Source: Granulicella sp. (GTDB lineage Bacteria > Acidobacteriota > Terriglobia > Terriglobales > Acidobacteriaceae). From it: DNA of 64,000 nucleotides. The notes under the pieces were generated by a model. It was not told the origin of the DNA. It saw only the letters and a program-made list of their open reading frames with translations, and searched no databases. The stretch is from positions 62,001-126,000 of the forward strand of contig JANXYX010000043.1 in assembly GCA_025408425.1 (NCBI GenBank). Reading direction: 5' to 3'. Shown piece after piece: positions 30,661 through 62,342 of this stretch. The number at the start of each line of letters is the position of its first letter. Position 1 is the first letter of the stretch. Position numbers and translations under genes: made by a program.

Positions 30661-30814
30661 CAAAATATCCAGCGCCTTGAGTCTGGAATCGGCCACGACG
30701 CTACCGCTTACTGCTGCCCAGTGGCTGAGATGGGACACTTTTAGAAGACCTTATTCAACTCCCTGGGTGCAAATTAATCCCATAATTCTTCGTGACATTG
30801 AAAAGGAAAAACAC

Positions 30815-35699: not shown

Positions 35700-35739
35700 A
35701 ACCCCATTCGGCGAGGAGTTTTCCTCGCCGAATGGGGTT
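35700..35739. terminator. Strong bidirectional terminator
   Basis: Perfect 18-bp stem AACCCCATTCGGCGAGGA / TCCTCGCCGAATGGGGTT with a GTTT loop, AAA on one side and TTATTTG on the other. It sits between the convergent beta-helix lipoprotein gene and the minus-strand cassette, so it can stop transcription from both. Confidence 0.9.
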
Positions 35740-35807: not shown

Positions 35808-36797
35808 CTATGGGCGGCAACCAGATCGCGCTGCAACAGTGATCCGCGGATCACCAGATCCTAGCCCATTCTTGGCTCGTTGTTCAGGAACTTCGCGGGA
35901 GCGAGACTCTGACTGCTGCCGCAATGTTGCGTCTCTATGTAACTTCTCGATTATTTCAGCAACCGTCCACTGGTCACGGCCCGTCCAGTCAGTGTTGGCC
36001 AGAGTTGATGTGACCTCTCGAACCCCGCGCATGATATGAGGCGTCAGACCGCTATTTAACATCGTCGCCTCAACTTCCTTTAGTTCTTCGCATCGTCTGG
36101 TTGCATGTTGAGGGTATGTGGGTAGCATCCGCCTAATGACTTCCATGATGCTGGGGTAAATCTCATCGCAGGCTTCAATTGCTTGATCGGCCAGATCCAT
36201 TTCTTCGGCCAATAGCATCGTCTCTATGAACAGCGCCGACAAACCCTTCGGTATTCCAGAGACAATCATCTTAAGAGCCGACGCTTGACCGGGAAAATCC
36301 CCTACTGCCTTGACGCGCATGATCAGTGCAAACTGGTCTGAAAGTTCTTTTGCGCGCGGGCCGCTAAGATATAGAGTGCCACGTTGCCTGAGTTGGGAAG
36401 CTAAACCAAATATCGCCGCATCGACGAAATCAACGGGAACATCGCACAGCACCTCAGCGATTTGCGCCACAGTCATGGGGGAAATAGAGTTTGCGTCGAT
36501 ATACAGCAGGGTGCGGGTAGAGCCCTCTAACAGCGCAGCCACCTCTCTGGCCACGGAGAGCGCTGTGGCAGGTGGTACAAGTGATATCACCACGTCGGAA
36601 CGCTGGAGTACTTCGAGCAGCGATGCAACAACTGTCAGTCCGGCCTGCTCGCATAGACATTTGGTACGAGCGCTTCTGCCCACGACGGTCGTGATAACGC
36701 GAAAGCCACACTCGCACAACAACCTCCCGAAGGCTGACCCCATTTCGCCCGGGTACAAAATCCCAATCATATTTCGGTGTGGGGTATCTTCCATCAC
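35808..36797 (-). CDS. 6-phosphogluconate-dehydrogenase-like oxidoreductase with DUF1932 domain
   Basis: 329 residues. N-terminal NAD(P) fold with the beta-hydroxyacid-dehydrogenase-like start IGILYPGEMGSAFGRLL near residue 11, then SLVPPATALSVAREVA and YIDANSISP near residue 98, then a helical C-terminal domain with GQASALKMIVSGIPKGLSALF near residue 175, the DUF1932 pattern. Members oxidise or reduce hydroxy acids; substrate unknown. Start overlaps the ATP-grasp stop by 4 nt. Last gene of the five-gene cassette. Confidence 0.8.
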   Translation of the reverse strand: MMEDTPHRNMIGILYPGEMGSAFGRLLCECGFRVITTVVGRSARTKCLCEQAGLTVVASLLEVLQRSDVVISLVPPATALSVAREVAALLEGSTRTLLYIDANSISPMTVAQIAEVLCDVPVDFVDAAIFGLASQLRQRGTLYLSGPRAKELSDQFALIMRVKAVGDFPGQASALKMIVSGIPKGLSALFIETMLLAEEMDLADQAIEACDEIYPSIMEVIRRMLPTYPQHATRRCEELKEVEATMLNSGLTPHIMRGVREVTSTLANTDWTGRDQWTVAEIIEKLHRDATLRQQSESRSREVPEQRAKNGLGSGDPRITVAARSGCRP

Positions 36798-38140
36798 GAT
36801 AAACGACCAGACGCCTCTTGCCGGGGCAGATCAATCGTCGGTACGCTTTGTGTATGGATATCCGACGCACCAGTGGTGGGCGAAGCTAGCAGTTGGGGCT
36901 CGCGCGAAAGCTTCGCCCCTCTTTTCATAATTCGGAGGCGAGACCAAGCGTACCGCACTACACGCGCACTGCCACGGATCGAAGGCAGCGGATCATTCCA
37001 CCGGAACACGGGGAGTACTTGAGGGTGCATGATGCTACGTATCCACGCGCTGAAGGTTAGGAGTCCCATCCTATTCAGCTCACGGTATGCGGCACAATCT
37101 GCAATGGGCTTCCATAGCCGCATCCCCATACGGTATCGGGGCGGTGGCTCTGCATGTGCTCGGCCAGTCAGCCTGTCATACACAAAGAGCGGCAAATTTA
37201 GGCCGCTTGCGACGAGCAAGCAATCAGCAGCCGTAAAGCGTGCATTGCATTCGATTAGTTTGAGCTTGCCATCTCTGTCATCCATTTTGAACTCAACATT
37301 TCCCACCCCAAGCAACCCTACCTGTCGAAACAGTGCCAATGCCAGCGCTTGAATATCCGGCACGTGGTCCGTGATGTGGTAAGTCGATCCACCCATGTTT
37401 ATGGGATACCTGCGAATAACTCTCTTCGTGAAATCGATGAGATTATTCCCTTTCTCATCCAGGTACGTATAGTAGCTACATAGTTTGTCATCTGGTCCGG
37501 GAATCAATTCCACAAGAAACGTCTGGATGCCGGCACCTGATACCTTATCAAAGGCACCAAGCAACTCATCCAGGTTGTTAGCAACGGTGTAATGTCCGTT
37601 AAACTTCCTGCTAAATGTATGTCCTATGATCGGCTTGAGGATTAGAGGAAAGACTAACTCAGTCGAGAGTTTTTCAATCTGTTCCCGCGTATCGGCAACC
37701 CAAAACTTCGGGGTAGGTACACCGGCAGCTTGCGCGGCACGATAGGTGCTGAGCTTGTCAAGCATACACAATTGTGCTGAGGGATTCGACAGGTCTAGAG
37801 TAAATTTTTCAGAGAGCGACTGCCGGTGTACAGCGATCAGTTCGATGGCCGCATCGCTCCCTGCTAGCAGAACGGCACCACGCAGATGTTCGGACTCTGC
37901 TCCCAGGAGGTAAGCAGCCCATGACTCTGTCCCGCCTCCGACAGCCTCCGGGAGATCGATCCACTTGCAAAACCGGGAGTAGCGAACGTCTGCTTGCGGA
38001 CGGTTAATCGCATAGACCTGAATGCCGGCAGCACCCAGGCTTCTGGCGATTGAAAGACTGCCGATGTCGCCTCCCACAATGAGCGCTGGCGGGAGCTGTT
38101 TGATTGACGATTCAATTCGCGAATCCACGTTATGGGGCAT
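36794..38140 (-). CDS. ATP-grasp carboxylate-amine ligase (first type)
   Basis: 448 residues. N-terminal pre-ATP-grasp Rossmann-like part (ALIVGGDIGSLSIARSLGAA near residue 19), ATP-grasp core with FPLILKPIIGH near residue 165, VELIPGPDDKLCSYYTYLDEK near residue 210 and the metal-binding VEFKMDDRDGKLKLIECNAR near residue 275, then a 120-residue C-terminal extension. Resembles D-aspartate-ligase/PylC-like enzymes that join an amino acid to an amine via an acyl phosphate. Begins 3 nt after the oxygenase gene. Confidence 0.82.
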   Translation of the reverse strand: MPHNVDSRIESSIKQLPPALIVGGDIGSLSIARSLGAAGIQVYAINRPQADVRYSRFCKWIDLPEAVGGGTESWAAYLLGAESEHLRGAVLLAGSDAAIELIAVHRQSLSEKFTLDLSNPSAQLCMLDKLSTYRAAQAAGVPTPKFWVADTREQIEKLSTELVFPLILKPIIGHTFSRKFNGHYTVANNLDELLGAFDKVSGAGIQTFLVELIPGPDDKLCSYYTYLDEKGNNLIDFTKRVIRRYPINMGGSTYHITDHVPDIQALALALFRQVGLLGVGNVEFKMDDRDGKLKLIECNARFTAADCLLVASGLNLPLFVYDRLTGRAHAEPPPRYRMGMRLWKPIADCAAYRELNRMGLLTFSAWIRSIMHPQVLPVFRWNDPLPSIRGSARVVRYAWSRLRIMKRGAKLSREPQLLASPTTGASDIHTQSVPTIDLPRQEASGRLS

Positions 38141-38143
38141 GGG

Positions 38144-39169
38144 TCACGCCGCCTGCGTAAGGGTTTTGGGACGAGATACTCCCATTGCAATAGGGCTTGT
38201 GAGCAGATCGACAATACCGCGTAGGGCTAACTGACGAATGGCCTCCTGCATGTCTGCACCCATTCCTGAGTTATTCATCAGCTTCGAGATTTCAGACACT
38301 GTTCGCTGTCCGTTCATCAAGCTGAGTGCTTCGAATTCAGCCTCTGTGACGGTGGCGTGCGGCTGCCCGTATATGACCACGCCGAACTGTTCGCTCCAAT
38401 CACGGCTATAGCGGCGATGCAGGTAATCTACGCGCCTGCCAAGTACCGGGTTGCTGTCCGTCCAGTCGGAGTGCGCGGAGTTTGCTAAGGATAGCGTGTC
38501 TTGTCTTGTTGCGGCGCTGTGCGGATCTTCCCCAAGGGTGTCGCAGTTATAAGTATTCAACTTCAAATACAGCACTGTAGTCCCCGCGCCGTGTTCGCGC
38601 AGATGCCACATTGCGTGTCCCCTGAATATCTGCACATCACGCGGTTGATCCTGAATTTCCACCCGCGGCGCACTCTTCAACTCCGCATCTGGAAGTGTGT
38701 GCGGGGAGAAGCTGGAGCGTAGTTCAGCTGTGGAGTTAAATGGGTTCACACTGACATCGTGTTCCGGGTAGATCACCAGCGTTGATCCTTCGGGAACACG
38801 GATCGAGAAGCCAACCGAGAATTCAGAGCCGAAACGGTCCTTGTGCGCGAGAGGGTACGGATCAGCACCGGGCTCGTACTCCTTGATGTGGCGCTCTGAC
38901 AAGGTCAGGCTGTTGGCATCGACCCCGCAAATCGACGCGACAGTCTCGCGCAACTCATCATAATGTTCCGGCTCAAGGAACTCGAAGATCGCTTGCTGCT
39001 TATCGCCTCGTGCAAAGTCCTTCAAATGCTTCTGTTCGAAAGAATCCTCGACATACTTAACTAGCTTGGCGTGGAAGTCTTCCGGCAAGCCCCCGGGGAT
39101 GTGGACATACCCTCGCTCTGCAAAAGCATCAGCATAACTATCGGCGTCGAAGTTGAACATCTTAGGCAT
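38144..39169 (-). CDS. Putative 2-oxoglutarate/Fe(II) oxygenase with PqqD-like C-terminal domain
   Basis: 341 residues from ATG 39169, chosen because AGGAG lies 6 nt upstream; the ATG at 39175 touches that site. Probable double-stranded beta-helix with H109-x-D111 (PLAHKDRFGSEF) and a distal His at 185 or 189 (RGHAMWHLREHG), then YLKLNTYN, giving the 2-His-1-carboxylate pattern of phytanoyl-CoA-hydroxylase-like enzymes. Residues about 257-325 (FEALSLMNGQRTVSEISKLM) look like a PqqD/winged-helix domain. Likely hydroxylates an amino-acid or peptide intermediate (inference). Third gene of the cassette. Confidence 0.65.
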   Translation of the reverse strand: MPKMFNFDADSYADAFAERGYVHIPGGLPEDFHAKLVKYVEDSFEQKHLKDFARGDKQQAIFEFLEPEHYDELRETVASICGVDANSLTLSERHIKEYEPGADPYPLAHKDRFGSEFSVGFSIRVPEGSTLVIYPEHDVSVNPFNSTAELRSSFSPHTLPDAELKSAPRVEIQDQPRDVQIFRGHAMWHLREHGAGTTVLYLKLNTYNCDTLGEDPHSAATRQDTLSLANSAHSDWTDSNPVLGRRVDYLHRRYSRDWSEQFGVVIYGQPHATVTEAEFEALSLMNGQRTVSEISKLMNNSGMGADMQEAIRQLALRGIVDLLTSPIAMGVSRPKTLTQAA

Positions 39170-39171
39170 TT

Positions 39172-40278
39172 TCATCTCCTGTCTGCGATTAGTGTGGTGT
39201 TCAGTTCAGCTACGCCAGGGGCGAGCAGAAATGGAAGGATGTGGACGGCAACGGGGTAACTTCCGTCCCGCTTGTAATAGTGGTGGTGATACGAGGGCGA
39301 TGTGTTGACCTCCAGGATGACTCCGCCCGACTCGGCCAATGGCACATGGGGATTTGACGTGATCACGTCGATGCCCGCGAATCGGACACCGACGGCTGCT
39401 GCGGCTGCTGCGCCATCGTCAATAATTGACTTGCATAAAAGATGCGCAGCCGAGAAGTTGTCCTGTTGCGAGTTGTCGTTGATAACCGCTTTGAGTGTTA
39501 CCACCCTCCCCTCTGCTGGGACAGAGGAGAGCTTCAAGCCCTGACTTGCAAGCGTACTTCGAACGTCGGTGTCGATCACAATCAGTGCATGTGCCAGGTT
39601 GGAACCTGTCTTCAACCTGGTATCGTTTTCCTGGCAAATCAATTCTCGTACGGTTGATTTTCCATCGGCTACCACTGAAGAAGGTCTTCGTAAGACCGCA
39701 TCTATCAACACACCGTCGAAGTAGAGGAGCCTGTAGACGTCGCCGGCGACGTGCTGTTCGACCATGAGATTTCGACCATAGACTGCTGCATGTGCTGCAG
39801 CACGAAGTAGCTCAAAGTGCCCACGAATACCAGTCGTCACGCCTTGGCCGCCGCCACCGTTAGCCGGTTTCACGACACACTTGCTTCTGGAGTTCTCGAC
39901 AAAAGCGGTGGCTTTGTCCAGCTCGTTCAACGTGAACTCGCAATAGGTGGGCGTTCGCAGTTGCCGCTTTGCTAAGAGACGATGCACCACAGGCTTGTTC
40001 TGCGCGACCATAACCGCGATTGCACTGTCTATGGCCGTGATGTTCTGTTGAACGCGGGTGTACTCCTCGCCAAGTCTAATCTCGAACATGTCATTCCCCA
40101 GCGCTTCGAGGCTGGCCCCAAGCTGAGATGCGGCACTGGACCAAAGGTCCGCATAAAAATGGGACCGATGTTTGAGAGCGAGTAGGGTCTTGGGACTACG
40201 GACACGCTGGCGCTCTTTCAGGCGATATCCAGCGTACAGAATTTGGGCTACACGGGGTCCACACAGTAGTGAAGACAT
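39172..40278 (-). CDS. Stand-alone CphA/GshF-type ATP-grasp ligase
   Basis: 368 residues from ATG 40278, with GAGG about 8 nt upstream. The ATP-grasp core matches cyanophycin-synthetase/GshF enzymes: CVVKPANGGGGQGVTTGI near residue 135, YRLLYFDGVLIDAVLRRP near 180, VVADGKSTVRELICQEN near 203, and GGVILEVNTSPSYHHHY near 325. The Mur-ligase half of cyanophycin synthetase is absent. Expected to make an amide or peptide bond. Second gene of the cassette; ends 2 nt before the oxygenase start. Confidence 0.85.
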   Translation of the reverse strand: MSSLLCGPRVAQILYAGYRLKERQRVRSPKTLLALKHRSHFYADLWSSAASQLGASLEALGNDMFEIRLGEEYTRVQQNITAIDSAIAVMVAQNKPVVHRLLAKRQLRTPTYCEFTLNELDKATAFVENSRSKCVVKPANGGGGQGVTTGIRGHFELLRAAAHAAVYGRNLMVEQHVAGDVYRLLYFDGVLIDAVLRRPSSVVADGKSTVRELICQENDTRLKTGSNLAHALIVIDTDVRSTLASQGLKLSSVPAEGRVVTLKAVINDNSQQDNFSAAHLLCKSIIDDGAAAAAAVGVRFAGIDVITSNPHVPLAESGGVILEVNTSPSYHHHYYKRDGSYPVAVHILPFLLAPGVAELNTTLIADRR

Positions 40279-40297
40279 CACAAATTCCTCGACTTCT

Positions 40298-41041
40298 TTA
40301 GGCAGCTACACTTTCACCCGTAGGAGTTACATCACATCCCGCTTGGGTGAGGATTCTATCCACCCAAGCGTTGGAAAAGTCACCGCGTTTGACGCCGGCC
40401 AAATACGCGGCCTGGCTGGCTTTCTGATTGCGCAATCTATTAAGGAGATTGAATGCAATTTCTTGTGGAATATCCACGATGCCTGCACCATCTGCAACGA
40501 TAATATCGCCGGGATTCACCACGATGCCGCCGCAGCATATGGGGTAGTTGATCTCGCCGGGCCCGCGATGGAGAGGTCCTATGGACGTCGTGCCTCGTGC
40601 AAATATGGGGAAGTCTAATTCCAGAATGTCTGGCAAGTCGCGAATAAATCCATCTACGATGAAGCCGGCTATTCCGCGATGTTTAGCCTTGGTGGACACG
40701 AGGTCGCCCAACACCGCGTTCATGGAGGAAGCGTGGGCATCAATGACCACGATATCGCCCGGCATGGCTACGTCGAGACTCTTATGGACCATGAGGTTAT
40801 CCCCTGGAAAAACCTTCACAGTACAAGCCGGCCCACACAGGCGGTGGTGGTTACCAGTCAGGCAGCTCAAGCCAGAGTCCATCGCATACAGTCGATTGAG
40901 CATGTCAGAAATGTCTGGTGTGGCGAACTCCGCAAATTGCGCCATCAGGTCTGAATCCGCGCGACTAAACTCTGCCTTTACGCGAAAACCCGGTCCAGGA
41001 AACATCTCTGCCGAAATAGGTTTTGCAGCCTTGCTGTCCAT
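40298..41041 (-). CDS. RraA-like lyase (HMG/CHA aldolase or oxaloacetate decarboxylase family)
   Basis: 247 residues. Core motif DLVSTKAKHRGIAGFIVDG then FIRDLPDI near residue 125 is the Mg/pyruvate-binding site of 4-hydroxy-4-methyl-2-oxoglutarate aldolases and relatives; NPGDIIVADGAGIVDIP near residue 187 is also typical. Family members cleave or form C-C bonds beta to a keto acid, while RraA proper inhibits RNase E. Pathway context favours an enzyme. AGGAGG 5 nt upstream gives a firm start. First gene of the cassette. Confidence 0.85.
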   Translation of the reverse strand: MDSKAAKPISAEMFPGPGFRVKAEFSRADSDLMAQFAEFATPDISDMLNRLYAMDSGLSCLTGNHHRLCGPACTVKVFPGDNLMVHKSLDVAMPGDIVVIDAHASSMNAVLGDLVSTKAKHRGIAGFIVDGFIRDLPDILELDFPIFARGTTSIGPLHRGPGEINYPICCGGIVVNPGDIIVADGAGIVDIPQEIAFNLLNRLRNQKASQAAYLAGVKRGDFSNAWVDRILTQAGCDVTPTGESVAA

Positions 41042-41201: not shown

Positions 41202-41903
41202 TTATGAGATGTGTGATTCGACGTGAGAGGAGACAGCCGAAGCTTCGCCCGAAGCATTCGCCAAGATTCCGTCTCCAAGAAACTCTGAGGCTCCGACCAC
41301 GCCCGGCTGGTCAATTCCGTCGCGATTGAAAATCTTCCACATAGTTCGAACAAGGATCTGTAGATCGAGCGAAAGGGATCTATGATCTACGTACCAAACG
41401 TCCATTGTGAATTTCTGGTCCCAACTCAGTGCGTTCCTACCATTGACTTGCGCCCATCCTGTGATGCCGGGAAGTACTTCATGGCGACGTCTCTGAAAGG
41501 GAGAATAGCGCCCGAGATAGCGGACTAATAGCGGTCTGGGACCGACGATACTCATCTCGCCGCTAATGACGTTAATCAGTTCAGGCAGTTCATCCAGACT
41601 AGTCCTACGAAGAACTCGACCAAAAGACGTAATGCGTGAGCTGTCCTGGAGCAGATCTTCTGCAACGTCGATACGTTCCTTCATGGTGCGAAATTTAAAT
41701 AACGTGAACAGCTTTCCATTCAACCCAGGGCGTTGCTGCCGAAAGATAACAGGCCTACCCAGGAACACCGCCACAAGCAGCGCAGTCAACAAGATCGCAG
41801 GGGACATGAGGACCAGGGCAATAACCGCGACACCTAGATCAAAAAGCCGCTTCAGCTTGTCGTATCGTGCGTGCTCTCGCGGGTTCTTCATAGTAAGTCT
41901 CAT
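41202..41903 (-). CDS. Polyprenyl-phosphate sugar phosphotransferase (PglC/WbaP C-terminal type)
   Basis: 233 residues from ATG 41903, which has GAGG just upstream; the frame opens at 41972, where no ribosome site is seen. Membrane re-entrant helix LKRLFDLGVAVIALVLMSP, then RQQRPGLNGKLFTLFKFRTM, RRTSLDELPELINV (catalytic Asp-Glu) and SIVGPRPLL. Transfers a sugar-1-phosphate from a UDP-sugar to undecaprenyl phosphate, starting the repeat unit at the inner membrane. It lacks the N-terminal four-helix part of full-length WbaP. Confidence 0.93.
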   Translation of the reverse strand: MRLTMKNPREHARYDKLKRLFDLGVAVIALVLMSPAILLTALLVAVFLGRPVIFRQQRPGLNGKLFTLFKFRTMKERIDVAEDLLQDSSRITSFGRVLRRTSLDELPELINVISGEMSIVGPRPLLVRYLGRYSPFQRRRHEVLPGITGWAQVNGRNALSWDQKFTMDVWYVDHRSLSLDLQILVRTMWKIFNRDGIDQPGVVGASEFLGDGILANASGEASAVSSHVESHIS

Positions 41904-41968
41904 ACGCCTCGTTGCTGGAGTCCGCCTAGTCGTCATCGATCGATAAAGCTTGCCGCAGATACAGCACG

Positions 41969-42664
41969 TCATGCGGCAGTTGGCACCGTCGGAGCAACAG
42001 CATTGACCGTTGCGCTCTTTGTCAGCTCTTTGGCTGGGACTCCAACCATCGTTGCCTCTGCCTGGACATCTTTGGTCACGACCGCTCCTGCGCCAATTCG
42101 TGCACCATCACCAATGTTCAAGTACTGCAATATCTGTGCCCCGGTTCCCACAAGCACGCCACTGCCCAACTTCACGCCACCTGATATGCTGACCATTGGA
42201 TTAAGCACACATCCGCGACCGATCACTGCCTCGTGTCCGATAGTGCAGGACGCATGAACTATGCAGAATGGCTCAAATCGAACGTTCACGGTGGCTATCG
42301 TACCGGCGCTGATGATCACGCCTTCCCCCACCTGCATCGTTCGTCGCTGCCATTTGACACTGGGATGGACCAACGCCGGCCATTCAACGTGGGGGAATTT
42401 CTCTCTAAGTTCCTGAGCAAGTTTGAGCCTGATAGCAGGAGTTCCAATCCCTATAGCAAGGGCATCGACGTGGTTTGATTCTAGCCATGAGAAATCTCCC
42501 AGTATGGCGCTGTCGTAGGGTCCGATCCGACTGATGTCGCTCACCAGAAAACCAACCATTTGATATTCGGTGGCCGCTTGATTTGCCGCAGCAGAAATAT
42601 CTTCTAGCATCCAGGCTACTTCCCTGGCACATCCGCCCGCACCGATGATCGCGATTCGCTTCAT
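41969..42664 (-). CDS. PglD/NeuD-family sugar O/N-acyltransferase
   Basis: 231 residues. N-terminal Rossmann-like sugar-binding part (RIAIIGAGGCAREVAWML), C-terminal left-handed beta-helix of hexapeptide repeats (IVHASCTIGHEAVIGRGCVL; VVTKDVQAEATMVGVPAKEL). Family members acetylate UDP-4-amino sugars (PglD) or sialic acid (NeuD). Next to a PglC-like transferase, a bacillosamine-type role is attractive but unproven. A GGGAG site precedes the ATG. Confidence 0.9.
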   Translation of the reverse strand: MKRIAIIGAGGCAREVAWMLEDISAAANQAATEYQMVGFLVSDISRIGPYDSAILGDFSWLESNHVDALAIGIGTPAIRLKLAQELREKFPHVEWPALVHPSVKWQRRTMQVGEGVIISAGTIATVNVRFEPFCIVHASCTIGHEAVIGRGCVLNPMVSISGGVKLGSGVLVGTGAQILQYLNIGDGARIGAGAVVTKDVQAEATMVGVPAKELTKSATVNAVAPTVPTAA

Positions 42665-43979: not shown

Positions 43980-44036
43980 ACTCCTCAATGTGGTATCAAC
44001 CTCTTGCTTCAATGTCAGTAGCACCGCTCCGAGTAC

Positions 44037-44783
44037 TCACGGATAACTTGTTAGACGAAGTGTGCTGAACCAATGATCGACTCTGGTGTTCGGGCTGCCA
44101 TCAGGTGCCTTTTCGATCCCATTCGCCGTCGGATGAACCATTATCTCGATATCGCCTGATGTGCTTGCAAGCACCTCTTGCACGTCAGCAGCAGAACCAA
44201 AGTAGCGGGTCTTTGCCAAGCCATGCATGCGGAGCCTGGTGTTGTATAGCCACTTATACAACTTGTGGACAAACGGAATCCCTGGACCGCAGTTGCGCGA
44301 CAAGCGGATTGCCTTTATCCCATATTGGCGCGCGACGTTAATGGCAGCCGATCCAACGGCCCACTCGGTATGGACGTGGTGATGTGAGTCCATATGTGTG
44401 GGTATAAGCCCACGATCAAGACATGCGGTGACTTGTGCGGCAATCTCCGTCTCAACGGCAATTCTCTCTTCCTTCGTCAATCGGAACCTGGTTTGCCTGC
44501 TGCGCAAGGTGCCACTCTCATCGCAGAGCCGTGAGCATAGTCGAATAGGAGTCGACAGAGGAAAGCCTTCTGTCAGATTCAGGTGTACTCCGATTCTTCC
44601 TAGCAGTCCGTGCCGGTGTGCCAACTCGCAGGCTTCTTCGAAACCAGGCATATTGGCCATTAGTGTGGCGCTGGAAATCATATGCTTCTCGAACGCCTCG
44701 ACTATGGCTTGGTTAACTTCATCATTAAGCCCAAAGTCGTCAGCGTTTGCTATGATCTTCCTGGATTCACTGGGAGTGAGCAT
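44037..44783 (-). CDS. ChbG/YdjC-family carbohydrate deacetylase
   Basis: 248 residues from ATG 44783, which has GGAGG 6 nt upstream. Metal-site motifs NADDFGLNDEVN near residue 12 and THMDSHHHVHTEW near residue 122; VHLNLTEGFPL in between. Family members remove N-acetyl groups from sugars (ChbG on chitobiose, HpnK in hopanoid loci). Overlaps the upstream glycosyltransferase stop by 17 nt. Probably trims the polysaccharide or its precursor. Confidence 0.9.
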   Translation of the reverse strand: MLTPSESRKIIANADDFGLNDEVNQAIVEAFEKHMISSATLMANMPGFEEACELAHRHGLLGRIGVHLNLTEGFPLSTPIRLCSRLCDESGTLRSRQTRFRLTKEERIAVETEIAAQVTACLDRGLIPTHMDSHHHVHTEWAVGSAAINVARQYGIKAIRLSRNCGPGIPFVHKLYKWLYNTRLRMHGLAKTRYFGSAADVQEVLASTSGDIEIMVHPTANGIEKAPDGSPNTRVDHWFSTLRLTSYP

Positions 44784-46059
44784 TATCAACCTCCAATGCT
44801 GCGGTGGGATCGACGTCCGCGCTGCGTGTTATATCCCGTACTTCGTCAGGGGTTGCAAGTGCGCTTTTTAGGACTGACTCTAGGCTGCGGGCAAGGTTAG
44901 TGAAGTTATGGCGTTCCTCGATGTAGCGCCTGGCACGCAACCCCATGTTCCATCTTTCTTCGTTCGACATAGCGGCCAACGCTTCGACTGCCCCGGCAAT
45001 TGCCTTGGAGTCTTCTGGTGGCACGCTAACACCCGCTTCCGCTTGGGCGATAGGATTGTTGTGGGAGTCTCCAGCAAAGATTGTTGGACGCGCAGCGGCC
45101 ATGTACTCGTGAAGTTTATTGGGACTTATTCCGTAACAATATAGTTCTGTTTTCCTCATGTTGATGATAAATGCGTCAGCTTCTTGCAGTGTAGAAAACA
45201 CCTTTTGCTTCGGCACCGGATCCTCAAACACCACGTTGCCAATGCTCTCTATTTGAACTCTCCGGCACATGGCAGACTTATTCGGGCCGTCTCCTACAAA
45301 ACGGAAACAGAAGCGTCCCGGAGCTTTCCAGTCCAGAATGGACGCGGCGTCGAGTATAGGATCCAATGCATCAGATAATCCGTGAGACCCCACGAACATC
45401 ACCGTGAACACATCGTGTGGAGTCCGTGGCCGAGGAGTCGGCATGAGTTTCATATCTACTCCATTCGGGATCCAAGTGATATCCTTCAGTCGCGCTCCTC
45501 GAGGCACCATGTACTCCGAAGCGTTAGGCAGCAGGGTTACAATCTTGTCCGCACGGCGGTACAGATATCGCTCAATCATTCCAAACACAACTACTGCAGG
45601 GTGGTATGCGGGCATGCCCATATCAATGAGTGTCTGCGGCCACAAGTCCCGGATCTCCAAGACAAATGGGACACGTAATCGACTGGCGACTCGCTCTGCG
45701 GCCAGAGCCGCAAGCAAGGTCAGTGAAGAGCCGATCACGATGTCAGGCTTAGGCATCTTCTGTGTGCCAAGGCCACACCACACTTCGAGCGCGAAAACAC
45801 ACATGTTCCACAGTCGAGCCACCTTGCTCTTATAAGCCGGGACGCGAAGTAGCAAGAACGGAACCTCGCCAAACCTCTCGAAGGTGCATAGTCTTCCGTG
45901 CGTGCAACTCATTTGCTTTCTTGTGGCGTAATTTATGCTCGATGCTATGACCGTGACATCGTGCCCGGCACGAATTAGCTGCCGGGAAAGACTATAGTGT
46001 CGCGTGCCGCCCGGCTCGGACGGAGGAACAGCATAGTGATTTATCAGCCAGACGCGCAT
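44767..46059 (-). CDS. Glycosyltransferase family 4 (WbuB-like)
   Basis: 430 residues. N-terminal LINHYAVPPSEPGGTRHYSL is typical of WbuB-like GT4 enzymes; the donor site includes YCYGISPNKLHEYMAAARPTIFAG near residue 310, the E-x7-E region. AAGGAGC precedes the start. Adds a sugar to the lipid-linked repeat unit; WbuB uses UDP-N-acetyl-fucosamine-type donors, but donor here is unknown. Confidence 0.9.
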   Translation of the reverse strand: MRVWLINHYAVPPSEPGGTRHYSLSRQLIRAGHDVTVIASSINYATRKQMSCTHGRLCTFERFGEVPFLLLRVPAYKSKVARLWNMCVFALEVWCGLGTQKMPKPDIVIGSSLTLLAALAAERVASRLRVPFVLEIRDLWPQTLIDMGMPAYHPAVVVFGMIERYLYRRADKIVTLLPNASEYMVPRGARLKDITWIPNGVDMKLMPTPRPRTPHDVFTVMFVGSHGLSDALDPILDAASILDWKAPGRFCFRFVGDGPNKSAMCRRVQIESIGNVVFEDPVPKQKVFSTLQEADAFIINMRKTELYCYGISPNKLHEYMAAARPTIFAGDSHNNPIAQAEAGVSVPPEDSKAIAGAVEALAAMSNEERWNMGLRARRYIEERHNFTNLARSLESVLKSALATPDEVRDITRSADVDPTAALEVDNAHSQ

Positions 46060-46120
46060 TTGAGATGCTCCTTAACTCCAGACGAAGCCTGCTAATTCTG
46101 ACATTCTGAAGGCTGCTCGC

Positions 46121-46900
46121 CTAGCCCTGTTGGGACTCGAGGCCTAACATTCGTCGCGTCCCAAAACTACCGCAGTTCATCAAAGCGTCTACGGCAGACA
46201 AATTTCCAACGAACTCGCCAAACAGTTGGGGATAACTCTGTTGCGAGAATGGTGAGTAAACCGGACTAATTCCGGAGGCCTCCAATTTCTCATCTTCCTG
46301 ATACGATTGGGCTCCAGTTCCAGCGAGATAGGTCGTCGCCCCAATCGTGTTGCAGATATTACAAAGTAATTCAGTTTTGTGGCCCGATACTTTCAATTCG
46401 CTCGCGCGCATAAACTGTGTCCCGAAACCAAGATAAGTACTGATAGAACAGATCAGGGCAATATTGAAATCGGCCAGAGAGATCGCGGTACACGTGATGA
46501 CGGAATAATGTGGCTCAAGCAAAGCAAAAACCTCTCTGAAATAGGGCGCCCTGCCATAATTGCTTCGGAGCGTTGCCAAATGTCGCACTGCCCAACGCTG
46601 CCTATGATCCGTCTGGACTTCATTGATCAGTTGGCCGTATCGACCAGTCGTAACTACAGGCACCGATAGCCACGCGCGACCGCTAGCAGTCTTGATGGAA
46701 TTGCGACTCACGAAGCTACCAGTTGGATATGCCACGTTATCCAGAAACACAAACTTATCCGCATGGGCTATCTTGAAGAAGTAACCCAGCCAGGGTATGT
46801 AGTTTGGTTGATGAATAGCCGCAATAGTACCGACGGCTGTATTCATTCCACAGCCGGCCGCGTGCTGGCTAGCACCATCGATTGGTTGCTCGTCTACCAT
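46121..46900 (-). CDS. WbqC-like family protein
   Basis: 259 residues. IAAIHQPNYIPWLGYFFKIAHA is the WbqC hallmark (usually at the very N-terminus), followed by FVFLDNVAYPTGSFVSRN and the end FGEFVGNLSAVDALMNCG. Biochemical role is not settled; found in O-antigen/EPS loci. The start at 46900 overlaps the PIG-L stop by 7 nt and gives about 27 extra residues; ATG 46846 would match family length better but lacks a ribosome site. Confidence 0.85.
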   Translation of the reverse strand: MVDEQPIDGASQHAAGCGMNTAVGTIAAIHQPNYIPWLGYFFKIAHADKFVFLDNVAYPTGSFVSRNSIKTASGRAWLSVPVVTTGRYGQLINEVQTDHRQRWAVRHLATLRSNYGRAPYFREVFALLEPHYSVITCTAISLADFNIALICSISTYLGFGTQFMRASELKVSGHKTELLCNICNTIGATTYLAGTGAQSYQEDEKLEASGISPVYSPFSQQSYPQLFGEFVGNLSAVDALMNCGSFGTRRMLGLESQQG

Positions 46901-47547
46901 CTCAATCTGATCACTTCAAAGGCTTCGGCATAAGGTGCGTGAACCTGCACTCCGCGCACTCGCGCCAGACTTTCGATGAACTCCCACGTAAAGTAGGGAC
47001 GACTGAGCTCAAATTGGGAGTGATATGCCTGAAGCGCCCCCCACTTCGCCTGCAAATCACAGGTTTCTAAAGTCACAAATGCTTGCGAGCTGAAAGAAAT
47101 GTTATTCCAAGGCAACTCATAACCCCAGAGGGTCATGTCTTTGAAGCAACGCAGTCCTTCGACGTTGAGGACCTGATGATCCTGGTGCAGATCGCTCGCG
47201 GAGGGAAGAAGTACCATATTTGGATTGACCTGCCTTCGTAGTTTCACTAATTCCTCTAATACTTCCTGGCGGTAATACGACAAGCGGCGCACAGGATATC
47301 CAAATACGAATGACTTCTCGGGCGGGATACCCAAGGTCTCCATGGCGGCTAAAAACTCGTCGCGGAGTCGAGTTGCAGGCACTCCGGGGGGGAGAGATGC
47401 CTCGGCCGTGGAAAACGCCGCCACATAGACGTCTTTCCCCTCTCTGAGTAGTCTCGCGATAGTGCCCCCACAGCCTAATTCGGCGTCGTCCGTATGCGGG
47501 GCGAGCACCAATATCCGCTGCGTGGAAATCATCAGATGTTGCATCAT
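46894..47547 (-). CDS. PIG-L/LmbE-family deacetylase
   Basis: 217 residues. Zn-binding motif APHTDDAELGCGG near residue 16 and distal HQDH near residue 122. Family members deacetylate GlcNAc in glycolipids, mycothiol precursors and antibiotics. With ChbG and WbqC it forms a modification block within the EPS locus. Confidence 0.92.
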   Translation of the reverse strand: MMQHLMISTQRILVLAPHTDDAELGCGGTIARLLREGKDVYVAAFSTAEASLPPGVPATRLRDEFLAAMETLGIPPEKSFVFGYPVRRLSYYRQEVLEELVKLRRQVNPNMVLLPSASDLHQDHQVLNVEGLRCFKDMTLWGYELPWNNISFSSQAFVTLETCDLQAKWGALQAYHSQFELSRPYFTWEFIESLARVRGVQVHAPYAEAFEVIRLRW

Positions 47548-47626
47548 GTATTGCCCCCGGAATCTCTAGGCACGGCGATCAGCCCTGACGGGCGCGGTCG
47601 TATAAGAAGGTAGAAACAAACTTAGT

Positions 47627-48814
47627 TCAGCTGTGCGATGGTGCTAGTCCTAGATGGTCGGCCTCGACAGGCACTCTGATCCAGAGCGGCAAAGGCTCAA
47701 CGGAGGCACGGTTGCTGCTGAGGACGTTCTTGTATACCTGGCTCAGCACTCTGCTCGCCGCGGGCCAGTTATAAGCTTTTAGTACCGCATCACGACCATT
47801 GCTTCCCATTTGTCGTCGCAGTTCCGGCTTATCAAGAAGATCCAGGATGGCCAGCGCAGCCCGTTCTGCGTTACATGGATCGATACAGATGCCACATTGC
47901 GCCGATTCGATGATTTGCTTCAGATTTGGAAAATCGGAAGAAACCAACGGAAGTTCGCACCACATATATTCGAACAGCTTCAGGGTGTTCTCTCCCGCAT
48001 ATGCGTAGGCAGGCACGGGCTGAAGGAGCAACAACCCTAAGTCCGCATCGACAAGGTGTTCGTAAACAGCCTGCAAGCTCTGGTTTCCGAGATAACGCAC
48101 GTTAGGTACTGCACGGATACGCTCCACATCCTCTGGGAATGGACAGGTTCCCATGAGTTCCAATTCCACATTCTGCTCATTGAGCAGCTCCGCAATTTTA
48201 AGCATCACCAGAAGTCCGCGTTCTTCGGATAGCCCACCGACGTAGATCAACCTGCGGGTGTTACGCCTGGCTTGCTCGGTGCGTTTCACAGGGGTAAGCA
48301 GGGGATAATTGGGCAACACGCTGACAGGACGACCAGTAAATGCCTTAGCCGTGTAACGGTCCGCCACGAGTACATGGTCCCACATGCTACTTGTAATCCG
48401 TTCATAGAACGAGAAGACAGTGCTCACGATTGGGCGCAATCCTATCGGAATCCACCGCATAGAGAGTATCTTGTCCGGATAGAACTCGCGGGTGTCATAG
48501 ATAACCTTCTTGCCGGAGAACTTCAACAGCAGACCCGCAGGAATCAGGTCGGGATGGTGAAACTGGTAGATGTCCGCATCCAACTCCCTTGCCTTTCGAT
48601 ACATCTTCCAAGAGAGACCGAACATACGCGAGAGCCGTCCTTTGGCTGGAGGCAAGGCTAATGTGTTGACTCCATCGACGCTTTCATCCTGCTCTTGACA
48701 AACGATCTGAGTAACCCGGTATCCTTCCGCTACCTCCAGGTCGCACGCCTTCTGGAAGATTCGGATGTCGTCGGCGGGGTAGGTGCTGAGATGCACAATG
48801 TGTGGTGCTTTCAT
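47627..48814 (-). CDS. Glycosyltransferase family 4
   Basis: 395 residues from ATG 48814 (AAGGA 9 nt upstream; the longer frame to 48895 lacks such a site). GT-B fold: IVHLSTYPADDIRIFQKACD at the N-terminus, LIYVGGLSEERGLLVMLK near residue 200, donor site LKLFEYMWCELPLVSSDFPNL. Sugar donor and acceptor unknown. Confidence 0.9.
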   Translation of the reverse strand: MKAPHIVHLSTYPADDIRIFQKACDLEVAEGYRVTQIVCQEQDESVDGVNTLALPPAKGRLSRMFGLSWKMYRKARELDADIYQFHHPDLIPAGLLLKFSGKKVIYDTREFYPDKILSMRWIPIGLRPIVSTVFSFYERITSSMWDHVLVADRYTAKAFTGRPVSVLPNYPLLTPVKRTEQARRNTRRLIYVGGLSEERGLLVMLKIAELLNEQNVELELMGTCPFPEDVERIRAVPNVRYLGNQSLQAVYEHLVDADLGLLLLQPVPAYAYAGENTLKLFEYMWCELPLVSSDFPNLKQIIESAQCGICIDPCNAERAALAILDLLDKPELRRQMGSNGRDAVLKAYNWPAASRVLSQVYKNVLSSNRASVEPLPLWIRVPVEADHLGLAPSHS

Positions 48815-48928
48815 CTGCAGATATCCTTCTTTGGGAGATGTACCTCGAAGAGATGCTGGCCGGCTAATGGCGCAGTCTAAGTTGATCTGAGTCACAGATC
48901 GAACTAGTGTCCATTGGCCAGCCGTGAC

Positions 48929-49969
48929 CTAAGCTACAGCGTCTGTGTTTTCCAGTTGCGGATAGCTAGTTTGAGGTTTTGCGGTGAAGCTATACGGTAG
49001 CGGCTTCTGCCTTTGCTTGAAGTACTCGGCAATCAGGTCAATCGTAGTATCCAGCGAGGTAGAGCGGTACCATCCGATGTGCCTTTCGATCTTAGCCGTC
49101 GACGGTACGCGACGCGGCATATCCTCGAAGCCAGCCTCATATGCCTGGTCATATGGAACATAGGTGATCGGTGAATCGCTGTTTAGCTTGGTTTTGATGA
49201 GCATGGCGAGGTCTTCAATGGAGATCTCTTCTGAACTGCCGATGTTGAACACCTGACCGATGGACTCAGGAGCATCCAGAAGCTTGAGGACACCAGCTAC
49301 GGTATCTCCGACATAACAGAAGCAACGACTTTGTTTGCCTGTCCCGAAGACAGTGATCGGCTTCCCTTCCAGCGCCTGCCGCACAAAGTTCGGAACCACC
49401 ATCCCATACTGCCCCGTCTGGCGGGGACCTATCGTATTGAAGAACCTTGCAATGACGACTGGGAGTTGCCTTTCTTTCCAATAGGCTAATGCCAGAAACT
49501 CGTCAAGTGCTTTCGATGCCGCATAACTCCATCTGCCCTTGTCCGTTGAGCCGAGAACCAGATCATCCTCTTCGCGGAAGGGAAAGTGCGTGCTCTTTCC
49601 ATAGACCTCAGAGGTCGAAGCAATAAACACCATCTTCTTCTTCTTACGTGCGGCTTCGAGCACCAACTCCGTTCCTTTTATATTTGTCTCAATAGTACGG
49701 ACGGGACTTTCAACAATAAGACGAACACCAACAGCCGCTGCCAGATGAACAACGAGATCGCACTCATCCACTAGTTCTGCCAGTAGACTTTTGTTCATTA
49801 CCGAATCGATCCAATAGTTCAACTTAGGTACATTCTTAAGGTGGCGAATGTTCTCCAAGCTGCCAGTTGAAAGATCATCCAGAATGAGAACTTCGTCACC
49901 TCTTGACAGTAAAGCTTCTGCAAGATGAGAACCGATAAATCCTGCACCGCCGGTAATTAGCACACGCAT
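48929..49969 (-). CDS. NAD-dependent sugar epimerase/dehydratase (extended SDR)
   Basis: 346 residues. TGGAGFIGSHLAEALLSRG at the start, catalytic Ser in STSEVYGKS, and YAASK with catalytic Tyr/Lys near residue 150. Closest in look to UDP-glucose 4-epimerases and UDP-glucuronate decarboxylases. With the upstream UDP-sugar 6-dehydrogenase, a UDP-xylose or UDP-galacturonate route is possible. Confidence 0.9.
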   Translation of the reverse strand: MRVLITGGAGFIGSHLAEALLSRGDEVLILDDLSTGSLENIRHLKNVPKLNYWIDSVMNKSLLAELVDECDLVVHLAAAVGVRLIVESPVRTIETNIKGTELVLEAARKKKKMVFIASTSEVYGKSTHFPFREEDDLVLGSTDKGRWSYAASKALDEFLALAYWKERQLPVVIARFFNTIGPRQTGQYGMVVPNFVRQALEGKPITVFGTGKQSRCFCYVGDTVAGVLKLLDAPESIGQVFNIGSSEEISIEDLAMLIKTKLNSDSPITYVPYDQAYEAGFEDMPRRVPSTAKIERHIGWYRSTSLDTTIDLIAEYFKQRQKPLPYSFTAKPQTSYPQLENTDAVA

Positions 49970-49996
49970 TTCATTTCCCCCTCTCTAGATGACGTT

Positions 49997-51256
49997 CTAT
50001 TTAGAACTAACCAGCGATGAATCGCCAGAAATGTATTGAGGATCGTAAGATCCGCTCAGGTGTCCAACCGCAGACAGACAAAGCTTCTCAAGCTTTTCCG
50101 CACTACAGGACCAGGAACAATGAGTCTCGACAAACCTACGCCCTTCTGTTGAGAGACGAGCGCGCTCCACTGGGTCAGCCAAAAGTCCAAGGATTCCTGC
50201 AGCAATCTCATCGGCGTTTTGACCCACAACCAGTGGAGGCTCCACGCCGTCCACGCACAGTCCAGCGACAACCACAGGAGTGGTGACAACTGGTATTTCC
50301 ATGGACATGGCTTCAAGCACTTTGTTTTGAACCCCAGACGCAAACCGGACAGCGGCAACAAATACGTCAGCTCGTTCCAGGTACGGTCTGACATCAGGAA
50401 CGAAGCCAGTCAGGGTCACATCGGGATAGCGTTGGGCCACAGTCACCAGTTCCGGTCGAGGATCGCGACCCACGATAAGTACTTCCAGACCATCAAGTAC
50501 TGGCCTTATGAGCGGCAAGACCTTCTCCAATAGAAACAAGGCCGCGTCATTGTTCGGAGAGTAGCTCATAACTCCAGAGAAGACGATGCAGTTCTTCCCG
50601 GAAGACGGCGCGCTACGCTTCCAGTAGTCATAGTCAACACCCTGCGGCACTATTTCACTTCGATCATTAGGCCCCAGAAGATTCTCTCGGTCTCGTGTGG
50701 AGATAAAGAAACGGTACGCGGTTTTGCGCGCGAGTCTTTCTTCCATTCGTCGCTCCCTCACGTAATGAACGAACAGTCTCGGCCAGCGCAAGAAGCCTGC
50801 TAGGCGCATCTGCTGCAAGATACGTGCGCAATTGGTATCGCCGCAGTCAACCACAATTGGCACTTTCACTCCATCCAAAACAGGCAGAGCATCGCGGCCA
50901 TGGAATAGTACAAGGTCGAAAGTCTGGTGCTTCAGCAGGCTCTTCACGGCTATCTGCATCTGCTTGACAGCACAGCGTGTCTTCCAGAACTTCTTCAATG
51001 GCCTACCAAATGCCGGTATTAGCCCGCACATCTTGATCACTGAGGTTTCTGGAACATCGCAGGTATTGAATATCTCTATCCTCTCGGCATAGGCCTGCAG
51101 AGCTGGGATAGATTCCGGCGGAATCTGCTTCTGGTCTGTAAGGGACAGGAATGTAACCGCATGGCGCCCACCTAACAGTCGCAATAGGTGGAAACCTCGC
51201 AGAAAGCCGCTGGTGAGCGGGTATGGGATCTCGGGATATATCCACATAATTTTCAT
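49997..51256 (-). CDS. Glycosyltransferase (TIGR03087/Stp1-like GT4)
   Basis: 419 residues. PEIPYPLTSGFLRGFHLLRLL start, IVPQGVDYDYWKRS near residue 210, FSGVMSYSPNNDAALFLLE near residue 230, and SGVQNKVLEAMSMEIPVV near residue 320. These segments fit the sugar-transferase subfamily often found in exosortase/EPS loci; no exosortase is present here. Confidence 0.87.
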   Translation of the reverse strand: MKIMWIYPEIPYPLTSGFLRGFHLLRLLGGRHAVTFLSLTDQKQIPPESIPALQAYAERIEIFNTCDVPETSVIKMCGLIPAFGRPLKKFWKTRCAVKQMQIAVKSLLKHQTFDLVLFHGRDALPVLDGVKVPIVVDCGDTNCARILQQMRLAGFLRWPRLFVHYVRERRMEERLARKTAYRFFISTRDRENLLGPNDRSEIVPQGVDYDYWKRSAPSSGKNCIVFSGVMSYSPNNDAALFLLEKVLPLIRPVLDGLEVLIVGRDPRPELVTVAQRYPDVTLTGFVPDVRPYLERADVFVAAVRFASGVQNKVLEAMSMEIPVVTTPVVVAGLCVDGVEPPLVVGQNADEIAAGILGLLADPVERARLSTEGRRFVETHCSWSCSAEKLEKLCLSAVGHLSGSYDPQYISGDSSLVSSK

Positions 51257-51382
51257 TGTCGTTGCGTCTGTTTTTAGTCCTCGGCCTGTGCCGGTAGTCG
51301 CTCTAAGGCCGGGAAAACCGGGCCAACCTCAATCGATAAAGAGCGACGGGAATTTCACTCGACACAACAGTCGAAGCGATTG

Positions 51383-52501
51383 TTACGGAACCCTGCCGTA
51401 GACCGCCATGCCCGAAACTGTCTGAAGAATTGCCTCGATTGTTCGTCGACCGGCTGCTTTTGCGCCGCTCATGGGAACGAACAATATGTCATCTGGTTGC
51501 AGATTGATGTCCGGTGACTTTGCGGACAGGATGCTCTTAAGTGAGATCAAGCTCTCTTGCGGATGACTATCCGGACCTGCTTTGCGGATCAACTGCGCTC
51601 TGTCCAGAGCGGCGGTAGAATTGGCACCTTGCGCCATAGCATAGGCTTGGAGAATCGACATATGTGAGTTCTCCATGACGAACCCGCCGGGCAAACGAAC
51701 ATCTCCAACGACGTAAACGACGCCTGCCTTCGACACCAACACCGTATCGCCTGGATACACATAAATGTTTGTCAGTTTAGATGACTTGTCGTCGTAGACC
51801 AGGCTCACGTTCTCCGACTTTTGTGAGTCAGACCGACGCAGTACCGATACCGTGTTCCCAGCGCGAGGAGTGGTGCCACCTGCGGCAGAAAGTGCGTCGA
51901 ATAATTTCCGGGGGCCTGGCATCTGGTAGACCCCTGGCTTCTGTACTTCGCCCAGGACGGAGATCCCTTGAGTGACAAATTCTTTGTCGAGGACAGAGAC
52001 ACGCGGGTCATTAAAGAAGTGACCGTCACTCAAACGCTGTGTAATGAGCGCTTCGGCTTTGTCTGGGGTCAGGCCGCCAACCTTCACCGTGCCCGCCAGA
52101 GGCAGTGTGATTTCACCTGTCGAGCCCACTCTGACCTGCTTGATATAGTCCGGCGCGCCATAGACACTCACTTCGAGTAAATCGCCGGGACCAATCAGGA
52201 TTTCAAAACTGGGCTCTCCGCTACCAGCCGGTGTTGGGAGCGCGGTCCCTGGAGGAGGGACTGCGGCATCGCCGCCAGGGACAGATCCTGTCGGACCGCC
52301 GCCACCTGAATGTTCCGCCGAAATCACATGCACAGCCGCACCGTTCTGGCCAGGAGCAATCAGATTCGGAAGTGGAGCAACTCTCACCGTGGAGACAGGT
52401 GATTGCGTAGAGCCTGCTTGGGCCAAAGAAGCTGCTCCGGACAGCAGAAATGTGATGCTAACCACAAATGCTTGGGTTTTTGAAATGTGTGGGCACGACA
52501 T
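51383..52501 (-). CDS. Wza-type polysaccharide export protein
   Basis: 372 residues from ATG 52501 (GAGG 5 nt upstream; GTG 52507 would overlap the previous stop). Signal peptide LSGAASLAQA without lipobox Cys, Pro/Gly-rich linker, Poly_export domain ILIGPGDLLEVSVYGAPDY near residue 105, then SLBB domains (VLGEVQKPGVYQMPGP; VVGDVRLPGGFVM). Forms the outer-membrane/periplasmic export channel. Confidence 0.93.
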   Translation of the reverse strand: MSCPHISKTQAFVVSITFLLSGAASLAQAGSTQSPVSTVRVAPLPNLIAPGQNGAAVHVISAEHSGGGGPTGSVPGGDAAVPPPGTALPTPAGSGEPSFEILIGPGDLLEVSVYGAPDYIKQVRVGSTGEITLPLAGTVKVGGLTPDKAEALITQRLSDGHFFNDPRVSVLDKEFVTQGISVLGEVQKPGVYQMPGPRKLFDALSAAGGTTPRAGNTVSVLRRSDSQKSENVSLVYDDKSSKLTNIYVYPGDTVLVSKAGVVYVVGDVRLPGGFVMENSHMSILQAYAMAQGANSTAALDRAQLIRKAGPDSHPQESLISLKSILSAKSPDINLQPDDILFVPMSGAKAAGRRTIEAILQTVSGMAVYGRVP

Positions 52502-52503
52502 AA

Positions 52504-54243: not shown

Positions 54244-54260
54244 ATCGTGAGCTCTTCAGA

Positions 54261-55649: not shown

Positions 55650-55764
55650 GTTAATGTTCGTCTCACCTTTCGCTATCGGGTACGCGTTAACGGCCGTGAA
55701 GTCTTGGTCTCGGTCTGGCAGTAAGAAAGCAAGAGTAAGAGAAAGAGTGCTGCTCAAAGGAGCC

Positions 55765-57045: not shown

Positions 57046-57053
57046 CGTTCACC

Positions 57054-58613: not shown

Positions 58614-58661
58614 AGTCTTTCGTCGATCAGCGAACTTTCGGTCGCATATGCCAGACCCGCC

Positions 58662-59921: not shown

Positions 59922-60005
59922 GAAAATCCCTGTTACCTGTAAGTTGATATGTCGAGATGAGCGGAACTATCCTGCTAACCGTCAGGAGACGAGACTTCTA
60001 AATAC

Positions 60006-62297: not shown

Positions 62298-62342
62298 AGC
62301 TTCTCCGTTCCCTCGCTCTCGCAACTAGAAAGCAGAACCACG

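Follow-up and report, generated by a model that had tools for sequence, protein, structure and literature searches.

An exopolysaccharide-linked gene cassette with two ATP-grasp ligases, an RraA-like enzyme and replaceable dehydrogenases: a candidate route to amide-linked polysaccharide substituents

Introduction

Three described systems come closest to the locus reported here, a cassette of five minus-strand genes in a stretch of Granulicella sp. DNA (contig JANXYX010000043.1) that encodes an RraA-like enzyme, two ATP-grasp ligases (ATPg1 and ATPg2), an Fe(II)/2-oxoglutarate (2OG) oxygenase and a DUF1932-type dehydrogenase. The window means the whole 64,000-nt stretch, and coordinates are window positions unless a locus is named. 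In phosphonoalamide synthesis, two ATP-grasp ligases (PnaB and PnaC) make peptides of an acid derived from phosphoenolpyruvate (PEP; PMC11867202). The E-64 pathway uses an Fe/2OG oxygenase on a C4-dicarboxylate, followed by ATP-grasp amide formation (Cp1; PMC12568646), while in C. jejuni the capsular glucuronic acid is amidated by ATP-grasp chemistry (Cj1438/Cj1435; PMC11800379).

The phosphonoalamide pathway resembles the route proposed here in its small acidic block from PEP, its two ATP-grasp ligases and its two amide bonds, and differs in having a phosphonate-forming enzyme and an aminotransferase; by term search, its paper text mentions neither an aldolase nor an oxygenase (PMC11867202). 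The E-64 pathway is unlike the cassette in that it is fungal, forms the second amide with an ANL-type amide bond synthetase and yields a free product, with neither RraA nor a dehydrogenase mentioned in the parts consulted (PMC12568646). The C. jejuni system, like the cassette, places an ATP-grasp amidoligase within a surface-polysaccharide cluster; Cj1438, on the other hand, carries a TupA-like domain fused to a glycosyltransferase, and its amine is serinol phosphate or ethanolamine phosphate (PMC11800379). Judged by the Pfam families listed, the cassette ligases appear to belong to other ATP-grasp families than that of Cj1438. A Pfam scan of 25 window proteins gave no family of PEP mutase, the phosphonate-forming enzyme of the phosphonoalamide pathway.

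In the open-access literature we found no paper combining RraA, ATP-grasp and exopolysaccharide (EPS), and none with two of RraA, DUF1932 and ATP-grasp. The five-gene set is not described among the open-access matches listed, and a subscription journal may carry a description. Iyer and colleagues surveyed the gene neighbourhoods of amidoligases in 2009, a study that may touch on ATP-grasp genes in sugar clusters.

Here we propose that the cassette makes a small amide-linked substituent, of the pseudo-dipeptide kind, for an exported polysaccharide without a non-ribosomal peptide synthetase (NRPS), a reading that we hold to be somewhat better than an even bet. An amide-type decoration alters how a bacterial polysaccharide is charged, how it sticks and how it is recognised, and few routes to such groups by way of ATP-grasp enzymes are known. 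A cassette with a few defined core genes narrows the search to a handful of proteins, and EPS analysis could reveal what they make; the carriers on record include the isolate Pseudonocardia bannensis DSM 45300 and the described species Edaphobacter bradus.

Recurrence of the gene set across phyla

Scanning one genome per species (84,980 species) with two short peptide patterns returned 12 oxygenase loci, a lower bound because the scan used only these short patterns. Genome searches added four carriers (the window's genome, G096, G453 and G919), for a total of 16. The carriers span Acidobacteriota, Planctomycetota, Ignavibacteria, Actinomycetota and one proteobacterium, with the records naming Edaphobacter, Planctomycetota, Phycisphaerales, Ignavibacteria, Actinomycetota (Pseudonocardia, Solirubrobacterales, Blastococcus) and Kiloniellaceae; locus L008 lies in G451, at the same contig place as G017. 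ATPg1 is found in 15 of the 16 oxygenase carriers (12 of 12 in one search, plus the window, G453 and G919), RraA likewise in 15, and ATPg2 in 14 (all 11 of one genome search, plus the window, G096 and G453); in G017 the contig ends inside the oxygenase. Automatic gene calls overlooked some genes, for instance in high-GC loci, and these were recovered by tblastn and from the list of open reading frames (ORFs).

The cassette proteins recur across phyla at 33-72% identity and in shuffled gene order. Together with the conservation of the putative catalytic residues, this recurrence is more than chance, and the set is no local accident. The distance matrices of RraA, ATPg1, ATPg2 and the oxygenase also agree (r 0.66-0.87, 10-14 loci per pair, with L007, L008, L012, L031 and some single proteins left out), and the Mantel test gave 0/2000 in five of the six pairs and 6/2000 in the ATPg2-oxygenase pair. 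The patchy distribution of the cassette may reflect horizontal transfer.

Two gene sets define the core more closely. Genome G131, from the same family but another genus, has RraA, ATPg1, ATPg2 and DUF1932 in a row, adjoining glycosyltransferases, a polysaccharide deacetylase and an exosortase; no oxygenase was found within the 16 kb read there, and G131, going by its number, also gave no match in the oxygenase search of the sampled Acidobacteriota. A second Pseudonocardia copy (L029:9030-14943, G447:C44) comprises a sugar-transferase match, ATPg1, ATPg2, RraA and an epimerase, with its ATPg1 about 30 kb from that of the first copy, and this stretch gave neither an oxygenase nor a dehydrogenase match. 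The oxygenase is thus optional and, given that the dehydrogenase family is replaceable (see below), the core consists of RraA and the two ligases, usually with some dehydrogenase.

The genome samples added few oxygenase carriers: 2 of 61 relatives, 2 of 396 Acidobacteriota, 3 of 245 genomes from G441's class, 2 of 249 from G448's class and 1 of 294 from G442's phylum, most of these finds being loci already known. No oxygenase relative was seen in viral contigs (pattern scan) or plasmids, and the plasmid searches for the ligases returned only relatives below 60% identity, those listed at 26-33%. An ATPg2-like protein at E <= 1e-60 occurs in 10 of 327 Acidobacteriota genomes, with cassette-type ligases in three (window, G096 and G131). 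In six of the other seven (5-20 kb each, G283 left out), ATPg2 shares 26-33% identity with its best cassette query, only G367 has an ATPg1-like neighbour, and no RraA, oxygenase or cassette-dehydrogenase match was seen in those 5-20 kb. These distant relatives are generic and were therefore excluded from the cassette counts.

Linkage to polysaccharide genes

Polysaccharide-type genes or their homologues share a contig with cassette genes in all 16 carriers, the weakest case being L012 with a single glycosyltransferase-like neighbour. Here the polysaccharide assignments in L012, L054, L055, L057 and L058, and the transferase matches in L010, L011 and L029, were made by similarity to proteins of the window or other loci rather than by Pfam protein by protein. 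In the window, a polyprenyl-phosphate sugar transferase (Bac_transf) and a PglD-like acyltransferase lie directly upstream of the cassette, and this pair is kept beside it in 4/4 carrier genomes of the genus. The rest of the co-directional cluster encodes YdjC, glycosyltransferases, WbqC, a PIG-L deacetylase, Poly_export, an O-antigen ligase and a flippase, together with a DegT aminotransferase, Wzz/kinase chain-length functions and a Polysacc_synt_2 sugar dehydratase. Of 62 genomes of the genus, the same 4 carry both the oxygenase and wbqC, an EPS gene, a coincidence of chance 1/C(62,4) = 1.8e-6 if the genomes were independent, which they are not.

This linkage bears on the possibility that the product is a free secreted small molecule, such as a metallophore, signal or inhibitor, whose genes merely adjoin EPS genes. 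Comparable sets of 2OG oxygenase and ATP-grasp genes do make free pseudo-peptides such as E-64, but the linkage in 16/16 carriers (one weak), the shared distribution with the EPS gene within the genus and the lack of a recurring exporter, receptor or regulator among the compared neighbours, many of them unannotated, make a free product unlikely in our view.

The preliminary description of this locus had proposed that the five genes form one pathway, and the co-occurrence of ATPg1, RraA and ATPg2 with the oxygenase supports this. Its expectation that the five families would co-occur elsewhere is supported as well, with two modifications: other families can take the place of DUF1932, and the oxygenase can be missing. 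It had also asked whether the set travels with or without EPS genes, to which the contigs answer "with"; among its guesses for the product, the linkage favours an EPS decoration and makes a metallophore or signal less attractive.

The RraA-like enzyme and the oxygenase

The RraA-like protein matches PF03737 (E 2.1e-45; 155.1 bits vs a gathering score of 24.5), and its best PDB relative is the HMG/CHA aldolase 3noj (E 1.4e-27). By sequence it is a member of the HMG/CHA aldolase/oxaloacetate decarboxylase superfamily, with a correspondingly predicted activity. The D113-X20-R134-D135 pattern, which we take to be the aldolase metal/catalytic motif, is invariant in 11/11 aligned proteins, out of 17 known cassette copies. 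The protein stays below the NCBIfam LigK equivalog cut-off for HMG/CHA aldolase proper (124.5 vs 304.5 bits) and narrowly below that of subfamily PRK06201 (227.5 vs 231).

The oxygenase matched nothing in Pfam or NCBIfam at E <= 1 and has no relative among PDB sequences at E <= 0.1. Its predicted fold, however, is the Fe/2OG double-stranded beta-helix, which confirms the 2OG assignment. The predicted iron ligands H111, D113 and H191 are kept in 21/21 sequences (alignment A2), where R193, Y203 and K205 are also invariant; R193 and K205 were considered for the 2OG-binding Arg/Lys. Among structural matches to the core, the BesD/HalA family of free amino-acid halogenases and hydroxylases has the best VIA-align Z (16.3), with SnoN, SnoK and prolyl hydroxylases tying. 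In BesD/WelO5-type halogenases, Gly or Ala replaces the iron-binding acid (HxG), whereas the cassette enzyme has HxD and an additional C-terminal winged helix. A halogenase of that type is disfavoured by the Asp found at the acid position in 21/21 sequences, and because of the invariant HxD...H site the best reading of the oxygenase is a predicted hydroxylase. Weak WelO5 matches (E 0.04-0.33, far under the cut-off) were obtained for 4 of 8 oxygenase relatives; in all, the oxygenase has 302 protein matches at E <= 0.001, of which 120 were listed.

The C-terminal winged helix is PqqD-like and resembles an RRE, a hallmark of ribosomally synthesized and post-translationally modified peptides (RiPPs) for which we tested. 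It could in principle bind a precursor peptide that the ligases extend or modify, so that the scaffold would be RiPP-like. Comparison of 135 small ORFs from 13 loci gave one odd match but no convincing shared precursor candidate, and we consider such a scaffold very unlikely.

The ATP-grasp ligases

Both ligases are weak in Pfam and recognisable as ATP-grasp enzymes through NCBIfam and PDB sequences. ATPg1 matches PRK14016 (E 3.3e-47) and PDB 7txv (E 1e-23). Over about 290 residues, ATPg1 aligns with the ATP-grasp domains found in cyanophycin synthetase and GshAB; unlike these proteins, it stands alone at 368-369 aa and scores far under both cut-offs, reaching 161 vs 877 bits in the cyanophycin synthetase model and covering only profile positions 184-473 of 871. 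Its K96, K138, E175 and N326 are invariant in 14/14 aligned sequences (alignment A4, 14 of 17 known copies), and position 324 is E in 13 and D in one. ATPg2 resembles CarB/PRK12767, and many of its close homologues are labelled D-aspartate ligase by one source; K129, K169, E211, E283, E297 and N299 are invariant in 20/20 aligned sequences (A3). The Lys pair and the E-x-N motif presumably serve ATP and Mg binding in both ligases. Separately, a Solirubrobacterales genome (L011:4447-6351, L057:9476-11728) has an ATPg2 with an additional C-terminal ATP-grasp fragment in a 605 aa ORF, possibly a ligase fusion or duplication, and G919 may have a similar arrangement.

In a different arrangement, one ligase would amidate a glucuronic-type EPS residue while the other genes build the attached amine. 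Cj1438C performs such chemistry (PMC11800379). In L010 the gene directly before RraA is of the UDP-glucose dehydrogenase type (Pfam), L013 has a homologue near ATPg1 on the opposite strand, and the window has one at 30677-32227. Yet EPS clusters commonly contain UDP-glucose dehydrogenases, a pair of ligases points to a pair of amide bonds, and ATPg1 falls under the cut-off of the sugar-transfer ATP-grasp family (19.6 vs 31.4 bits), with TupA absent from its listed Pfam matches. Taken globally, we find this uronamide variant quite unlikely, marginally more so than the free product.

Replaceable dehydrogenases

A dehydrogenase adjoins cassette genes in 13 of the 16 carriers, and these enzymes come from three unrelated families. 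The window protein matches PF09130 (DUF1932, E 7e-11) and PF03446, with a 6PGDH-type Rossmann domain. DUF1932-type enzymes are found in eight carriers (the window, G096, G453, G442, G445, where it lies beside RraA, G447, G449 and G919), and K184 is invariant in 8/8 aligned (A6; 8 of the 9 DUF1932 copies known here). The three Ignavibacteria have an Ldh_2 enzyme of the malate/sulfolactate type, and G448 and G450 an Iso_dh enzyme of the isocitrate type; none was seen in L012 or on the short contigs of G017 and G446.

That unrelated families fill one position suggests that the redox step was recruited independently from each. This replacement is the best clue that the dehydrogenase acts on the cassette's own acid, and likewise the best clue to its nature: an acid within reach of malate-, isocitrate- and hydroxyacid-type enzymes alike. 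The three interchangeable enzymes provide a natural control, as their common substrate should be the acid of the pathway.

Relatives of RraA, DUF1932, Ldh_2 and Iso_dh are often catabolic, and the genes might be read as a catabolic module for hydroxy or keto acids with two unrelated ligases adjoining. The ligases, however, recur as faithfully as the lyase and the set sits in EPS clusters, and we regard this module as very unlikely.

One Ignavibacteria locus offers a more specific hint. At L005:4000-5574, homologues of ComA and ComB (phosphosulfolactate synthase and phosphatase) lie directly before RraA, and for the Ignavibacteria Ldh_2 the best NCBIfam model is L-sulfolactate dehydrogenase, under its cut-off; in L005, ComA and Ldh_2 score under their own NCBIfam cut-offs and ComB under those listed. 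The arrangement resembles the early steps of coenzyme M synthesis (ComA-ComB-ComC) and suggests that ComA and ComB would yield sulfolactate. ComA was found in 3 of the 16 genomes searched (15 carriers and G131; the B. subtilis and M. jannaschii controls were detected), with cassette linkage in L005 alone. Sulfolactate as a general cassette substrate was not borne out by this search.

Proposed pathway

Mechanistically, the metal-dependent RraA-type enzyme and its NAD(P) dehydrogenase partner would provide a short 2-hydroxy or 2-oxo acid that bears another acidic group, being malate-like and drawn from oxaloacetate or pyruvate, or sulfolactate-like in the locus with ComA and ComB. A custom short acid is suggested by the pairing of an aldolase/decarboxylase with a hydroxyacid dehydrogenase. 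By converting carboxylates to acyl phosphates, the two ATP-grasp ligases would then form a first and a second amide bond, as their presence in a row suggests. In this way they would link the acid to an amino acid or amine and, last, bring in a sugar amine (or uronic acid). The sugar dehydratase, DegT aminotransferase and PglD-like acyltransferase encoded in the window's EPS cluster make an amino sugar a likely acceptor, an argument drawn partly from family knowledge. Where present, the Fe/2OG enzyme would hydroxylate the product, aided by its PqqD-like winged helix, and the decorated sugar would enter the EPS repeat unit. A hydroxylated keto or amino acid condensed onto amines, as first suggested for this locus, is likewise a hypothetical product. 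Pyroglutamyl sugar substituents derived from an HMG aldolase reaction were also considered.

A bolder extension, which we put forward tentatively and think doubtful as a whole, is an NRPS-free pathway that horizontal transfer has carried into at least five phyla and that fixes hydroxy-acid pseudo-dipeptides to exopolysaccharide, malyl-type and, in at least one lineage, sulfolactyl-type, with three dehydrogenase families recruited independently and an RRE-bearing 2OG hydroxylase as optional tailoring.

Several observations weigh against the polysaccharide-substituent proposal. Because EPS clusters contain many genes and vary in content, lying within one is no proof that the product sits on a sugar. 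RraA is on a contig other than that of the oxygenase in G445, G449 and G450, where no linkage was seen, and L012 has the oxygenase alone within 20.9 kb. The G919 dehydrogenase is only 22-25% identical, and ComA was not found in the window's genome and is linked to the cassette in one of the 16 genomes searched. The agreement of the distance matrices can also stem from shared descent, and fits genes moving together or descending together. Finally, we infer the substrates of all the enzymes, the order of steps, the product and its attachment site.

Locus layout and neighbouring genes

Five intact, tightly packed minus-strand ORFs fill 35808-41041 (Table 1). With ATG starts at 40278 (ATPg1) and 39169 (oxygenase), the spacings are 19, 2, 3 and -4 nt, which reproduces the gaps and the final overlap given in the preliminary description; its gene families are likewise supported. 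The longest-ORF starts would instead give a 16 nt gap and a 4-nt overlap. The later oxygenase start is likelier than the longest ORF because most close homologues are 341 aa long and begin at the later Met. AAGGAGG, which resembles a ribosome-binding site, stands just 5' of the RraA gene.

Table 1. Features of the cassette and its surroundings (window positions)
Feature	Position	Strand	Basis or remark
RraA-like enzyme, 247 aa	40298..41041	-	PF03737, PDB 3noj
D113-X20-R134-D135, putative metal/catalytic motif	40637..40705	-	RraA alignment
ATP-grasp ligase 1 (ATPg1)	39172..40278	-	ATG start 40278; GTG 40281 also open
Fe(II)/2-oxoglutarate oxygenase, 341 aa	38144..39169	-	ATG 39169
H111-x-D113 ... 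H191 iron site	38603..38845	-	alignment A2
PqqD/RRE-like winged-helix domain, oxygenase C-terminus, residues 238-331	38183..38464	-	
ATP-grasp ligase 2 (ATPg2), CarB/PRK12767-like	36794..38140	-	
DUF1932/6PGDH-like dehydrogenase	35808..36797	-	PF09130 + PF03446
Perfect 18-bp hairpin with T-rich tails	35700..35739	.	between converging genes
Polyprenyl-phosphate sugar transferase (Bac_transf) and PglD-like hexapeptide acyltransferase	41202..42664	-	Pfam, tblastn
Rest of co-directional polysaccharide cluster	44037..63980	-	Pfam

The hairpin beyond the dehydrogenase gene is probably the terminator closing the operon, being the strongest of 12 terminator-like sites in a scan for which 7.0 (sd 3.0) were expected. 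The gene converging on the cassette from its far side (33074-35677) encodes a protein with five He_PIG Ig-like repeats, and L027 and L028 have similar sequence on that flank.

Within the EPS operon, a right-handed beta-helix protein (42702-44024) is 71% conserved in G096, with a distant relative just past the cassette in G453 (L028:13407-14549). A GINT1_N/GH43-like protein of the cluster (52504-54243) may be a further recurring partner, since the contigs that carry RraA in G449 (L054) and G450 (L055) also hold homologues of about 34% identity. Lastly, pairs of FemAB-like genes (Acetyltransf_6) lie near the cassette at L003:11826-14440 and L004:13542-16049, in one Ignavibacteria and one Planctomycetota genome.

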